Assembly (NCBI RefSeq): GCF_029338295.1
Contig: NZ_CP119791.1
Span: 2,604,001 to 2,668,000, forward strand
Reading direction: 5' to 3'
Source of the DNA: Haladaptatus sp. QDMS2
Lineage (GTDB): Archaea; Halobacteriota; Halobacteria; Halobacteriales; Halococcaceae
Length of the DNA: 64,000 nucleotides
Within the stretch, counting starts at the first letter, position 1. Each line of letters opens with the position of its first letter. A program made the position numbers and the translations under genes. Below, piece after piece: positions 2,845-59,802 of this stretch. A model generated the notes under the pieces. That model saw only the letters and a program-made list of their open reading frames with translations. It searched no databases and was not told the origin of the DNA.

Positions 2845-3518
2845 CCGGTGGCACCGGCCGCCGGCTGTGGGGAGTCGTCGCCCGCGGCTTCGAGGGTCGC
2901 CGGTCGCGCGAGTCGCGAGTAGGGGAACGAGTAGCGGCGGAGTCGTGACCGTCGCAGCGTGTCTCGTGGGTAGACCGCCTCGACGACGAGGTCGTCGCGG
3001 TCGTACCGGTGGTTGCCGGGATAGCCCGCGACGGTCGTGTTCGCGGTGGGGATTTCGACTTCGTCCGCTCGGTCCGTGGTGACCCGATAAACGATGAGGG
3101 GGTCGCCCGTCTCGCGGTCGATTACCCGGTCGCCGGGTTCGAGTTTGTGCCCGGGACAGAGGAACGGTCGCGGCGCACCTCTGCGAGCCATGAGTCGGTC
3201 GCCACAGACGGCGCACTTCGTGGTGAACTTGCCCGGCGGCGGGACGCGCCCGAGGGTGATTTCGAGCGCGACCCGCCGCTGGTGTTTGCACTTCGCGTTT
3301 CTGAGTTCGTAGTCCGGACACGAACACTCGTGTTTTGCGAGGTCGACGACGTAGGTCGCGCCGCTCTCGCTATCGACGGCGTAGCGTCCATCAGGAAGCT
3401 GTCGGACGGCCATGCATTCCGTCCACGCACGTGCAGACCGACTATCCATTCTGGAGGTGTCGGGCGCGAGTGCGATTTTTCGTGCTGGTGACGCTGGTGT
3501 TGCTTGCAATGGCGTCAT
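2841..3518 (-). CDS. SWIM zinc-finger domain protein
   Basis: 225 aa. A SWIM motif (C65-x-C67 ... C77-x-H79, seen as [15 protein letters not shown]) is followed by a second probable zinc site, C102-x2-C105 ... C121-x2-H124. SWIM domains bind DNA or protein. The C-terminal half is rich in Arg and contains no recognised catalytic motif. ATG 3518 is chosen: further upstream in-frame ATGs (to 3668) would add unconserved, low-complexity residues. Partners are unknown; convergence with hjc is positional only. Function is not recognised beyond the zinc fingers. Confidence 0.8.
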
Positions 3519-5077: not shown

Positions 5078-7441
5078 TTAGCTGTCTCGCATGAAGGCGA
5101 ACGTGGTGCCAAGGTGCTTGCCGACGAGGACCGTGCCGTCGGTGACTGTTGGGGCTGAAACTGCGTCACCTTCGAGTTCGTATCGGGTCAGGAGTTCGCC
5201 CGAATTCGCGTCGTACTTGTGGAGTCGCCATTCGTCGGTGCCGGCGTAGATGCTATCACCTGCGACAGCGAGTTCGCCAAGTCCGACGTAATTGCTGTGC
5301 GGCGATGGACGAGTGTTGTGCTCCCATTCGACGGTCCCATCCGTCGGCGAGAGTCGGTAGAGCCGGTGGTTGTCGATGTCGTTTCCGAATGCGTCATCGT
5401 TACCTGCGGTGACGAACACCGCGTTGTCAGTCGAGACGATGGAATCGACGTAGGTGTTCTCGTCTTCGCGCCCGTGTGAGAACGTTTTCGACCAGCGTTC
5501 GATTCCGTCGATATCGTAGGCTACGAGGTTCGTCCGTGGGTCCTCGTTTCGTGTTTGACTTCCGGCGAGAACGGTGGTGTCGTAGGCTTCGAGCGATTCG
5601 AGTCGTGGACCGCGTTCGCTCCAGCCAAGCGTTCCAGTATGACGCTCTACGGCCCACAGACGGCCATTCGTGTCGTTGAAGATGACGAATGGACCGCCGA
5701 TAACGGGCCCAGCCGCAAAGCCTTCGAGGCCGGGGCAGGTCTTTCCACTGAAGTCCCACTTCACGCTCCCGTCGGCAGCATCCAGTGCGTAGAGTTTCGA
5801 CCACGGGTGGCGGTATTTCGTGCCAACGAACACCGTTCCGTCTGCGACGGCCACGTCGGTGTCGAGCGGTCGTTCTGGTGAGAAGCGCCACTGTTCGACG
5901 CCAGTAGCACGGTCGACAGCGTACAGCACATCGCGGTCAGCCACGAACACGGTTCCCTGTTCGCTTGCAGGGCCAAACTGGAGCGACCCCTGTGCAATGA
6001 ACTCCCATTCCTGCTCGCCCGTCTCTGGGTCGAGGCCGTAGAGTCTACCGTCCGCGTCTGCCGTGACGGTCAGTTGCGTGCTGTCTGCGAGTGGCGAGGC
6101 GTGAGCCGCTTTCGTATCGAACCGCCATGCGAGTGATTCGGGCGGTGCGCCAAACTCGTAGACGCTCCCCCCGCCAGTCAGGTACAGTCGGCCGTCGGCG
6201 ACGATTGGATTCGAGATGTAGGTCGAATTTGGTCGTGCAGGCAGAACGTTCAGGACATCCCCCGTTTCCGTGTCAAAGGTGAAGAGGTGATACTCCCCGT
6301 TATTGAGCTGTGCGAGGGCGAAAAGCTTCGAATCGGCCGCGACGATCGTGCTGTAGAACCCGGAAATCGCCATCTGATCCCAGGTGTCACCTCCGGGATG
6401 TGTGTCGTATTGGCGTTCCCAGCGATATTCTCCAGTCGCAGCATCGATTGCCCAGAACGTGTTGTAGCCGTCCCTCACGTAGACGGTGCCGTTCGCTACT
6501 GTTGGCTGTGAAACCCCCCGGTGATTCGTGACGTCTCGTGCCCAAATCGGCGTTCCGTCTGCTGAGTCGTAGGCGACGACTCGTCGTCCAACCGTGAGGT
6601 AAACGAGTCCATCTCCGACGACCGGGGAGACGCTCAATGGGGTTCCTCTATCGTCTCGCCACACCTCACTACCGTCGTCGGTCGAGATGGCGAGAATTCG
6701 CTGTTGGTCGGTGAAGTAGACAGTTCCGTCAGTGACGGCCGGTGCGTCGGGTTCCCCGTCGGACAGATTTCCGTGTTCGTTTTCTCGTGGGGACGGACCG
6801 GCGACTCGCCACGTCTCTGAACCGTCTTCGGTATCGAGTGCGACGAACGCGCTTCGGTGGCCGTCGACACCGATGAGTTTGAAAAAGACCTGTCCGTCTG
6901 CAAGTGTCCCGACAGAGGAATACTTTGCGTCTGATTCGTACCGCCAGAGCTCAGCCCCATCGGACCGCGAAAACGCGGCAACCTCGTTCTCGATGAATAC
7001 CTGTTCACCAGATGCGACACCGACGACGATAACACGGTCTTCGTGGACGATTGGCGTATACTTCGACCCCGAATTGCCGATTTCTTTGCTCCAGGCTGTC
7101 GACTGGGACGCGAGGTCGATGGCCGACAGGTACAGTGTTCTATCAGTGTGTGAGGCCGTGACCTCGTGTACGACGTACGCAACGCCATCAGCGATTGCTG
7201 GCGCATAGGGGGCAGCCTCCGGCGTGTCGACGCTCCAACGGACCATCGCGTCCGTGTCTGGAGCGGCTTCTCCCGCTGCGTGCCAGGTGTTCTGTGAATC
7301 GTAGGCGTACATCGGATAGCCACTAATCGCCGTCTCTGCTGCCGCAACGTCGGAAAGTGTGGACAGACCCGCGCCTGTCACACCTGCGCCGAGGAGAGCA
7401 CCGAGCGCTTGGAGGGTAGTACGTCGGTTAAGTTCCGTCAT
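5078..7441 (-). CDS. Secreted PQQ-like beta-propeller repeat protein
   Basis: 787 aa. The N-terminus has a Tat-type signal: NRRTTLQALGALLGAG followed by a small-residue region ending near VAAAE, so export by the Tat pathway is likely. The rest is a long series of WD-like PQQ blades (repeated 'DG.VY', 'ALDA.DG...W' patterns), enough for two propellers. No PQQ-dehydrogenase active-site motif is apparent, so a binding or scaffold role is more likely than catalysis. ATG 7441 is chosen because the RR motif follows it closely; the in-frame ATG at 7501 would place 20 residues before it. The sequence looks less GC-rich than its neighbours, so it may have been acquired. Confidence 0.82.
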   Translation of the reverse strand: MTELNRRTTLQALGALLGAGVTGAGLSTLSDVAAAETAISGYPMYAYDSQNTWHAAGEAAPDTDAMVRWSVDTPEAAPYAPAIADGVAYVVHEVTASHTDRTLYLSAIDLASQSTAWSKEIGNSGSKYTPIVHEDRVIVVGVASGEQVFIENEVAAFSRSDGAELWRYESDAKYSSVGTLADGQVFFKLIGVDGHRSAFVALDTEDGSETWRVAGPSPRENEHGNLSDGEPDAPAVTDGTVYFTDQQRILAISTDDGSEVWRDDRGTPLSVSPVVGDGLVYLTVGRRVVAYDSADGTPIWARDVTNHRGVSQPTVANGTVYVRDGYNTFWAIDAATGEYRWERQYDTHPGGDTWDQMAISGFYSTIVAADSKLFALAQLNNGEYHLFTFDTETGDVLNVLPARPNSTYISNPIVADGRLYLTGGGSVYEFGAPPESLAWRFDTKAAHASPLADSTQLTVTADADGRLYGLDPETGEQEWEFIAQGSLQFGPASEQGTVFVADRDVLYAVDRATGVEQWRFSPERPLDTDVAVADGTVFVGTKYRHPWSKLYALDAADGSVKWDFSGKTCPGLEGFAAGPVIGGPFVIFNDTNGRLWAVERHTGTLGWSERGPRLESLEAYDTTVLAGSQTRNEDPRTNLVAYDIDGIERWSKTFSHGREDENTYVDSIVSTDNAVFVTAGNDDAFGNDIDNHRLYRLSPTDGTVEWEHNTRPSPHSNYVGLGELAVAGDSIYAGTDEWRLHKYDANSGELLTRYELEGDAVSAPTVTDGTVLVGKHLGTTFAFMRDS

Positions 7442-30710: not shown

Positions 30711-30750
30711 AGGATACTGTACGCACTCGTTGGTAGTGAAAATGAAGGGT

Positions 30751-30776
30751 GGCGTGCGAGGGGGGAGTCGCACGCC
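30751..30776. repeat. 9-bp perfect hairpin with G-rich loop, upstream of alaS
   Basis: GGCGTGCGA (30751-30759) pairs with TCGCACGCC (30768-30776); the loop is GGGGGGAG. A second stem CGGGT/ACCCG (30785-30789/30803-30807) has a G-rich loop, and a third, CCACCC/GGGTGG (30820-30825/30831-30836), follows. Confidence 0.6.
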
Positions 30777-30893
30777 GCAGAAAACGGGTGAGGGGGGGGA
30801 TAACCCGCTGACACGGTTGCCACCCTGGAGGGGTGGAGGGAACTCCCGCGGCGACCAACACGGCACAAATGAGGCATAACGGTGGACGGCTGC

Positions 30894-57631: not shown

Positions 57632-58051
57632 CTATTCTTCGGTGACGGTCTTATCGAGGTCTTTCTCGCCGAAGTAGATTTCCGCGCCGTCCTGGGCGAC
57701 TTTCTCTGCGAGGACGGCACACTTGATGCGCATCGGGCTGATGTCGACGCCGAGCATGTCGACCATGTCGTCGCGGTCCATCGCTTGGAGTTCCTCGATC
57801 GTCATCCCAGGAAGTTTCTGCGAGAGCAGACTGGCGCTCGCCTGGCTGATGGCACAGCCGTCGCCGGTGAAGGCGACGCGGACGATTGTCTCCTCGTCCT
57901 CGTCCAGGACGACGTCCATACTAATCTCGTCACCGCACAGCGGATTCTCGCCGACGTGTGAGAACGTCGCATTCTCCAGATGCCCGTAATTTCGCGGGTT
58001 CTTGTAGTGGTCGAGAATCTGCTGTCGGTACATATCCGAACCCAGTCCCAT
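57632..58051 (-). CDS. sufU: SUF-type Fe-S cluster scaffold / sulfur-relay protein SufU
   Basis: 139 aa. Zinc/cluster ligands C39, D41, C66 and C111 (NPLCGDE, GDGCAIS, RIKCAVL). NifU-N/IscU fold. In archaea with SufS, SufU accepts persulfide from the desulfurase. ATG 58051 is chosen. Minus-strand CTTTTAGG at 58076-58083 is a good TATA box. sufS lies upstream, separated by 497 bp of structured DNA. Confidence 0.93.
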   Translation of the reverse strand: MGLGSDMYRQQILDHYKNPRNYGHLENATFSHVGENPLCGDEISMDVVLDEDEETIVRVAFTGDGCAISQASASLLSQKLPGMTIEELQAMDRDDMVDMLGVDISPMRIKCAVLAEKVAQDGAEIYFGEKDLDKTVTEE

Positions 58052-58250
58052 ACTGTCCACGATATGAGAGTGCGACCTAAAAGGATTCCGCAGCCGGGAT
58101 TTTCGCGAAATAGAATAGTCAGAAAAAATGAATGGAAATTTCTCAATAACCGGTAGTGTAGGAAATAAAGTCCGAAAGGCTGAATATCCATATATCAAGA
58201 ATGAGTAATTAGCAGTACATTTATTATGGATGGCGTAGATTATTAAATTG
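58052..58250. other. AT-rich tract between sufU and the structured element
   Basis: Markedly AT-rich DNA with several TATA-like strings on the plus strand (CATTTATTATGG near 58218-58229, ATTATTAAAT near 58239-58248), which could drive the structured element rightward. A 26-codon open frame at 58128-58208 exists but has no supporting evidence. No origin motifs are recognised. Confidence 0.4.
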
Positions 58251-58287
58251 ATACCAGGGATTCCGAGTTCTTGGAATGAGGTATCAA
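58248..58287. repeat. Nested inverted repeat TTGATACC / GGTATCAA
   Basis: Outer arms 58248-58255 and 58280-58287 are perfect 8-bp complements; inner ATTCC/GGAAT extends the stem across a small internal loop, with terminal loop GAGTTCTT. On the minus strand it is followed by TTTAATAAT, which looks terminator-like. Confidence 0.6.
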
Positions 58288-58490
58288 CTGAGGGGAAGGG
58301 TAGGGGAGAACCGCAGCAAACTGCTGAGTCGTCAGTACCGGTCGCAAAGCCGGCGCGTGGGGGCGCGACGACGACTCGGCGCAACGAGCCACGTGGCTCG
58401 TAAGGGGGTCCACAGGGGAGGGACGAACCGAGACTTCGTCGGGGGGCGAAATCTCAGCATAAACGAGTCCTTGGGGGAGGACTGAGGGGT
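58288..58490. ncRNA. Candidate structured non-coding RNA between sufS and sufU
   Basis: About 200 bp of dense self-complementarity, bounded by CTGAGGGG direct repeats (58288-58295, 58482-58489). Stems: GCAG/CTGC (58313-58324); a long-range helix GAGTCGTC/GACGACTC (58326-58333/58370-58377) enclosing CCGG/CCGG and CGCG-TGGGGG-CGCG (58354-58367); ACGAGCC-ACGT-GGCTCGT (58384-58401); GACGAA/TTCGTC (58422-58427/58435-58440); AGTCCT-TGGGGG-AGGACT (58466-58483). Two hairpins share the loop TGGGGG. No RNase P or SRP motif is seen. Transcribed strand is not certain. Confidence 0.45.
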
Positions 58491-58548
58491 TTATTGGGGG
58501 GAGTACCGGTGACGGATTTTTCGAATGCGTTTCACTGTCGAGCGGACG

Positions 58549-59802
58549 TCAGACGCTCGCGAAGATTTCGCGGGCAGCGTCGACGGCGTCGACGAGCGCA
58601 TCGACCTCTTCTCGTGTGTTGTAGAGATAGAACGACGCCCGAGCGGACGCGGAGATGCCGAGGCGGTCGTGGAGCGGTTGCGTACAGTGGTCGCCCGCAC
58701 GGATGGCCACGCCGTAGTCGTTGACGATGCTCGAAAGGTCGTGGGCGTGGAGGTCGTCGAGGGTGAACGAGACGAGCCCAGAGCGGTCTTCGCCCAGGCC
58801 CGGCCCGTAGGTCGTCACGTCGTCGAACTCGTTGAGGCGTTCGAGCGCGTACTGGGCGAGCTGGTGCTCGTGGGCCTGAATCTTCTCCAGACCAATCTCG
58901 TCTAGGTAGTCACACGCCTCGGCGAAGGCGATGCCTTCTGCGATGAGCGGCGTGCCGGCCTCGTACTTCCACGGCAGGTCGTTCCACGAGGAGTCCTCGT
59001 AGGTGACCTTCCGAATCATCTCGCCGCCGTAGAGGAACGGCTCCATGTTCTCGAGAATCTCCTTCCGCCCGTAGAGGCCGCCAATGCCGGTTGGTCCGCA
59101 CATCTTGTGACCGGAAAAGGCGTAGAAATCCACGTCCAGAGCTTTGACGTCCACCGGTCGGTTCGGCACTGCCTGGGCCCCGTCACCGAAGATGTAGGCG
59201 TCGTGGTCGTGGGCGAGAGCAGCGAGGTCGCGAATCGGGTTGACCGTGCCGAGCGTGTTCGAGATGTGGACCGCGCTGACCATCTGCGTGTCGTCGTCGA
59301 TGAGTTCCGCCGCGTGGTCCATGTCGAGTTTCCCGTCGTCCGTGATACGGATGTAGCGCACCTCCGCACCCGTCCGCTTGGCGATTTGCTGCCAGGTAAC
59401 CAGCGAGGCGTGGTGTTCCATCTCCGTGAGGACGACGTTGTCGCCTTCACCGAGTTCGTTCAGGCCCCACGCGTAGGCGACGAGGTTGATGCTCTCGGTC
59501 GTGTTCTTCGTGAAAATCATCTCCTCGCGGCCGGCTGCGCCGACGAACTCGGCGACTCTGTCGTGTGCCTCTTCGTAAGCGATAGACGCCTCCTGGCTCA
59601 GATGGTGGATGCCCCGGTGGACGTTCGCGTTGTAGCCCCGATAGTAGTCCCCGAAGATGTCGATGACGCGATTTGGCGTCTGACTTGTGGCCGCATTGTC
59701 GAGGTACACCAGTGGCGTGTCGTCGCCGACGGTCCGCGAAAGGATTGGGAAATCCTCCCGGAGACGGGCGACGTCGAGTGGTGCTGACTCTTGGGTTCCC
59801 AT
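58549..59802 (-). CDS. sufS: Cysteine desulfurase SufS
   Basis: PLP enzyme removing sulfur from cysteine for Fe-S assembly. 417 aa. PLP Lys233 in FSGHKMCG; catalytic Cys373 in GDHCTQPLHDR; HISNTLGT and DGAQAVPN also present. Downstream sufU is likely the acceptor. Confidence 0.95.
   Translation of the reverse strand: MGTQESAPLDVARLREDFPILSRTVGDDTPLVYLDNAATSQTPNRVIDIFGDYYRGYNANVHRGIHHLSQEASIAYEEAHDRVAEFVGAAGREEMIFTKNTTESINLVAYAWGLNELGEGDNVVLTEMEHHASLVTWQQIAKRTGAEVRYIRITDDGKLDMDHAAELIDDDTQMVSAVHISNTLGTVNPIRDLAALAHDHDAYIFGDGAQAVPNRPVDVKALDVDFYAFSGHKMCGPTGIGGLYGRKEILENMEPFLYGGEMIRKVTYEDSSWNDLPWKYEAGTPLIAEGIAFAEACDYLDEIGLEKIQAHEHQLAQYALERLNEFDDVTTYGPGLGEDRSGLVSFTLDDLHAHDLSSIVNDYGVAIRAGDHCTQPLHDRLGISASARASFYLYNTREEVDALVDAVDAAREIFASV

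Follow-up and report, generated by a model that had tools for sequence, protein, structure and literature searches.

A putative structured RNA with GGGG-loop hairpins between sufS and sufU in Haladaptatus sp. QDMS2

The window analyzed here is a 64,000-nucleotide stretch of Haladaptatus sp. QDMS2 (NZ_CP119791.1, positions 2,604,001 to 2,668,000 of the forward strand), in which the minus-strand genes sufU and sufS are separated by a 497-bp intergenic gap (58052-58548) without a likely gene inside, in keeping with the noncoding stretch first noticed there. Here, we report, with high confidence, that this gap holds a structured functional RNA absent from previous listings (Table 1). The original prediction confined the feature to 58288-58490; the feature is real but wider, as the 5' hairpin (58248-58287), the promoter region and the T5 tract also belong to it. 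Both hairpins with the twin TGGGGG loops were present (each loop is a GGGG tetraloop closed by U·G), as were the direct repeats described at the flanks (CTGAGGGG at 58288 and 58482). The long-range helix described as 8 bp does enclose two hairpins but comprises 11 pairs. The structure and conservation of the RNA are well supported; its transcription, exact ends, factor, effect and any Fe-S role are what we infer from them.

Table 1. Features of the sufS-sufU locus (window coordinates) and position of the ndk-linked site
Feature	Position	Strand	Basis or remark
sufU	57635-58051	minus	
sufS	58549-59802	minus	
Upstream AT-rich region, probable promoter	58130..58247	+	Conserved in 3 genomes; consensus and spacing only
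TATA-like box TTTATTA	58220-58226	+	Conserved; ~25-27 nt before the predicted 5' end, 58248
Proposed RNA gene, ends approximate, ~270 nt	58248..58523	+	Fold vs shuffles; position conserved in 3 genomes
5' hairpin TTGATACC..GGTATCAA, inner stem ATTCCGA/TTGGAAT	58248..58287	+	Almost invariant in genus
G-rich linker CTGAGGGGAAGGGTAGGGGAGAACC	58288..58312	+	G runs retained in relatives
Invariant 18-mer GCAGCAAACTGCTGAGTC	58313..58330	+	Small hairpin possible, or part of 11-bp helix
11-bp helix, 58323-58333 with 58370-58380, around two hairpins	58323..58380	+	Predicted fold
Hairpin within 11-bp helix	58338-58353	+	Predicted fold
GGGG-loop hairpin within 11-bp helix, CGCG-TGGGGG-CGCG	58354-58367	+	Predicted fold
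Hairpin ACGAGCC-ACGT-GGCTCGT, without G loop	58384..58401	+	Source genome (G000) only
Hairpin GTCC-ACAGGGGAG-GGAC	58408..58424	+	G001/G002 counterpart GGTTCAY-GGGG-GTGAACC
Hairpin GAGA(C)TTCGTC-GGGG-GGCGAA(A)TCTC	58430..58455	+	Counterparts in G001, G002
Hairpin AGTCCTT-GGGG-GAGGACT (= AGTCCT-TGGGGG-AGGACT)	58466..58483	+	Counterparts in G001, G002
3' G runs GAGGGGTTTATTGGGGGG	58484..58501	+	G runs also in relatives
T5 tract, probable terminator	58517..58521	+	T5 at matching place near sufS in 3 genomes
ndk-linked site	G000:C1:814920-815259 (L166:2921-3260); L270 near 14105; L280 near 11706	minus (L270, L280)	

The plus strand of 58278-58500 folded with a z score of -3.4 (0 of 200 dinucleotide-preserving shuffles were as good), and the whole proposed gene (58248-58523) with a z score of -3.25 against shuffles; the fold of the orthologue in G002, taken singly, was not significant against shuffles. 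GGGG-loop hairpins numbered 3 in the source genome, G000, against 0.36 expected in shuffles (P 0.0045), and 4 in each of its relatives G001 and G002, against 0.44 and 0.35 (P 0.0005; 0 of 2,000 shuffles). Nine runs of at least 4 G and zero such C runs were counted in the G000 RNA, and all three orthologous RNAs carry 8-9 such G runs each and no run of at least 4 C. The unpaired fraction in the three RNAs was higher for G runs (0.64-0.70) than for other G (0.23-0.34).

The haloarchaeal cytoplasm is high in potassium. G tracts from several hairpin loops might assemble there as G tetrads in a K+-stabilized quadruplex scaffold, for which one can cite the 8-9 G runs per RNA, peaks of 1.8 to 1.9 in G4Hunter and the over-representation of quadruplex motifs in archaeal noncoding RNA (PMC7565180). 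We consider such a scaffold very improbable: the canonical motif (four tracts of at least 3 G, loops of 1-7 nt) was absent from all three orthologues, and the stems, which a simple quadruplex does not need, are kept.

Conservation was assessed in three genomes of the genus (alignment n = 3 sequences), all of which carry the RNA gene between sufS and sufU on the strand opposite to both. Identity declines from the promoter and 5' part toward the 3' part, with hairpin order retained. The hairpins at 58408, 58430 and 58466 have counterparts in both relatives that differ in their stems and expose GGGG, and a shorter helix (GCTG/CAGC) stands there in place of the 11-bp helix. In the three-species alignment, 88.9% of cells were paired, compared with at most 52.5% in slid versions. 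The covariation check suggested by the original prediction yielded four pairs changed on both sides, a modest signal, as the score was reached by 25 of 500 shuffles. Pairing and covariation are thus supportive but, with three sequences only, short of conclusive. Retention of the G-rich loops on changing stems suggests that these loops are the active part of the RNA. That the locus instead encodes a 69-amino-acid protein (58276-58485, plus strand), with no RNA at all, is scarcely credible: the frame is open in G000 and also in G002, where its sequence differs, but it is broken by a stop after 24 codons in G001, and the peptides are dissimilar past the first residues.

The Rfam search that had been proposed gave 0 matches at the gathering threshold in the window, the homologous loci and the sister loci. 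As was originally stated, no RNase P or SRP signature lies here: archaeal RNase P RNA (RF00373) and SRP RNA (RF01857) each had a single strong match elsewhere in the genome (C1:2476016 and C1:1737724, respectively). No tRNA was found at the sufS-sufU locus, and a kink-turn in the 5' hairpin was rejected by eye, G001 having GG where GA is needed. The best subthreshold Rfam match (21.4 bits; gathering threshold, 55) was the flg-Rhizobiales RNA (RF01736), which shares GGGA-type loops but serves as the leader of alphaproteobacterial flagellar genes, and the match is most likely a chance likeness of loop type. A matching archaeal RNA was not found in the open-access papers searched. The proposal of a structured noncoding RNA is supported.

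A free-standing plus-strand gene with its own predicted promoter and terminator is the best explanation of the sequence features, and transcription from the plus strand is likely. The spacing from the TATA-like box to the 5' hairpin would fit archaeal initiation near 58248, the TATA center of haloarchaeal small RNA (sRNA) promoters lying near -29 (PMC5892119), and the TATA-to-5'-stem spacing is alike in a second, ndk-linked RNA described below. The G·U pairs that occur within stems and at loop closings fit the plus strand, turning into C·A on the minus strand, and one U-A to U-G change in the 5' hairpin of G002 keeps pairing on the plus strand. Across both RNA loci in three genomes, 20 hairpins with GGGG loops were counted on the G strand and 12 with CCCC loops on the C strand. 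The minus strand of the source locus also folded better than dinucleotide-preserving shuffles (z -4.8), and minus-strand z scores (-4.8 to -8.2) were overall as good as or better than those of the plus strand, so the strand is one that we infer; we read these scores as an effect of shuffling, because a G-rich strand can always form G·U pairs. They would also suit a functional minus strand, as a sufS 3' region or sufU leader whose CCCC or CCCCCA loops act like those of C-rich-loop sRNAs that bind Shine-Dalgarno sequences. This C-rich-loop reading, raised in the original prediction, is quite improbable given the orientation of promoter and T5 tract, the loss of G·U pairs and loop closings and the lower hairpin count.

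A search of the genus for spaced G runs and then a scan covering 1.264 Mb of the G000 chromosome returned two loci only with at least three GGGG-loop hairpins within 300 nt: sufS-sufU (3 hairpins) and an array between ndk and a methyltransferase gene (7 hairpins; C1:815013-815225; fold z -5.5). The ndk-linked hairpins are TGGTCC-GGGG-GGACCA, TGGCTC-GGGG-GAGCCA, CCGGTTC-GGGG-GGACTGG, GCGTTTC-GGGG-GAAATGC, TGGTCC-AGGGG-GACCA, CGTTC-GGGG-GGACG and GTGGTTTC-GGGG-GGAGCCAC. At the same site, G001 and G002 have a shorter RNA with one GGGG hairpin each, its stem changed, together with a conserved TTTATGC promoter element, a conserved start (TTGTGTCCTGTTGGGG) and a closing stem (TTGTGTC/GACACAA). Two qualifying loci in 1.264 Mb suggest that GGGG-loop array RNAs form a small class, although three chance hairpins within 300 nt were also present at one unrelated locus (L090), and the sufS-sufU RNA is probably one of a genus-specific set. 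The two RNAs are not alignable, and the covariance model R3 hardly connects them (12.7 bits), so the likeness is one of design and does not imply common descent; a partner common to both is, for the same reason, an assumption.

Word, covariance-model and DNA searches across the order, covering 60 to 392 genomes, placed the RNA in the genus only, a result that highly diverged relatives could escape. Fifteen other genomes of the family had no such RNA upstream of sufU, where sufS lay close by or other genes were found. A 16-mer with one mismatch, searched in 392 genomes, matched only at unrelated places outside the genus, and model R2 (5' half; sound) found only the genus among 243 genomes. Three further, weak matches came from model R1 (3' half), of which two fell within coding genes and the third lacked GGGG hairpins; the middle helix of R1 was one column off, which weakens this negative, and R3 is the corrected model. 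Three spaced GGGGG runs proved an unspecific pattern across the order. In the sister genus, G012 and G014 had 58 and 53 matches to it, respectively, nearly all on one strand, perhaps from repeated sequence or one long array.

A role in controlling Fe-S genes, as originally suggested, is possible from the position between sufS and sufU. The plus-strand RNA could act in cis as an antisense to read-through RNA, with GGGG and CCCC loops kissing to start the pairing, and in all three genomes it does lie between both genes on the opposite strand. Such control is nevertheless improbable. An AT-rich element, AAAAGGATTCCG (plus strand), just upstream of sufU is likely the sufU promoter and is kept in family members that have sufS and sufU without the RNA, so sufS-sufU read-through appears dispensable; moreover, the similarly built RNA beside ndk has nothing to do with suf.

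In bacteria, decoy sRNAs that sequester a protein (Csr/Rsm) form a central layer of control. We tentatively propose, at slightly less than an even chance, that the sufS-sufU RNA is an sRNA titrating a factor that binds GGGG, in a manner analogous to that of CsrB or RsmZ. Through its row of hairpins and linkers, the RNA would display 8-9 G tracts, a number of them as GGGG tetraloops. These loops would be repeated binding sites of a single factor, most probably an RNA-binding protein that recognizes G-rich sequence close to mRNA starts as well. The RNA would be a multivalent decoy for this putative factor, as CsrB or RsmZ is for CsrA. One short exposed motif, repeated on stems that turn over freely, is what would be expected of a multivalent site for a single factor. 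As the relatives keep the GGGG tips and change the stems, and as the genome has a second such RNA, the tips probably hold a shared partner.

CsrB has 22 GGA sites, the high-affinity ones in hairpin loops, and sequesters CsrA (PMC5027483). Like the sufS-sufU RNA, CsrB/CsrC and RsmY/RsmZ are free-standing and repeat one short G-containing motif in loops and linkers. They differ in the motif (CAGGA rather than GGGG) and have no sequence or Rfam match to it. Membership in the Csr group was rejected: the loops are GGGG, without GGA motifs of the CAGGA(N)G type, and CsrA (PF02599) is absent from G000, G001 and G002 (controls were positive in Escherichia coli, Bacillus subtilis and Thermotoga maritima), which makes CsrB an analogy. 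Haloferax sRNAs and Methanosarcina mazei sRNA162 are likewise intergenic with their own TATA promoter (here a predicted one), but their described mechanisms are base pairing with mRNA, unlike the proposed decoy. To our knowledge, haloarchaeal and methanoarchaeal intergenic sRNAs have no repeated loop motif, and we know of no decoy sRNA of this type in archaea; the open-access literature searched held no archaeal protein-decoy sRNA.

A trans-acting antisense sRNA was also considered, one that would pair, through its GGGG loops or its invariant 18-mer, with C-rich stretches of mRNAs, or with CCUCC of the 16S 3' end with one G·U, and would alter translation. The G runs are exposed, the 18-mer is invariant, and archaeal sRNAs working at ribosome binding sites are already known. 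Around 658 predicted starts, GGGG was enriched and CCCC was not (if anything, slightly depleted), in a test that is rough because the most upstream ATG was taken as the start. This pattern speaks against the base pairing of loops with translation starts raised in the original prediction and is more in line with a factor recognizing G-rich mRNA starts. The repeated G4 motif would also offer little target choice, and we rate the antisense reading as unlikely.

Returning to the decoy, the exposed GGGG loop is the best-kept feature of the 3' half and thus a direct bait for a partner protein, and the differing hairpin numbers of the sister species make a natural dose test. It is possible, though doubtful, that the sufS-sufU and ndk-linked RNAs are founders of a new archaeal class of fast-evolving GGGG-tetraloop arrays (1 to 7 per RNA), which would be decoys for a GGGG-reading haloarchaeal protein or form a quadruplex core in high K+.

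Further loci were observed in the genus. A noncoding stretch conserved in three genomes (L167:2900-3180, minus; L168:2920-3150; L169:2920-3160) has a hairpin loop, AAGTGGGGGA, and compensatory stems (GACTGCCGGCAC/GTGCCAGCAGTC versus GACCGCTGATGC/GCATCAGCGACC), followed by the invariant 33-mer CACTGGATTTTGGGGGCCCTCCAGTTAGGCCAC. In G001 and G002, a response-regulator gene is preceded by hairpins (L170 and L171, ~2960-3060, minus), nearly identical between the two species, with loops GTTGGGGG and GAGTGGGGGT. Two near-identical intergenic copies on different replicons (L172:2970-3120, minus, G000:C1:1544972; L173, G000:C3:93234) share the hairpin GATTC-GTGGGG-GAATC, which lies below a promoter-like, AT-rich region. 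In the convergent gap after asd (L272, ~5990-6120, G001:C1:705992; G002:C1:477551), two short GGGGG-loop hairpins (GCAAT-TGGGGG-ATTGT and ACCT-TGGGGG-AGGT) are nearly identical in two species. Within the window, a G-rich stretch at 30740-30850 between tspO (minus) and alaS (plus) has hairpins GGCGTGCGA-GGGGGGAG-TCGCACGCC and CGGGT-GAGGGGGGGGATA-ACCCG; its position and some hairpins are kept in G001 and G002, and its minus strand would be a tspO leader. The tspO gene of G002 is in two pieces ~4 kb apart (C1:1453084-1453251, L135; 1457423-1457764, L134), probably split by an insertion.
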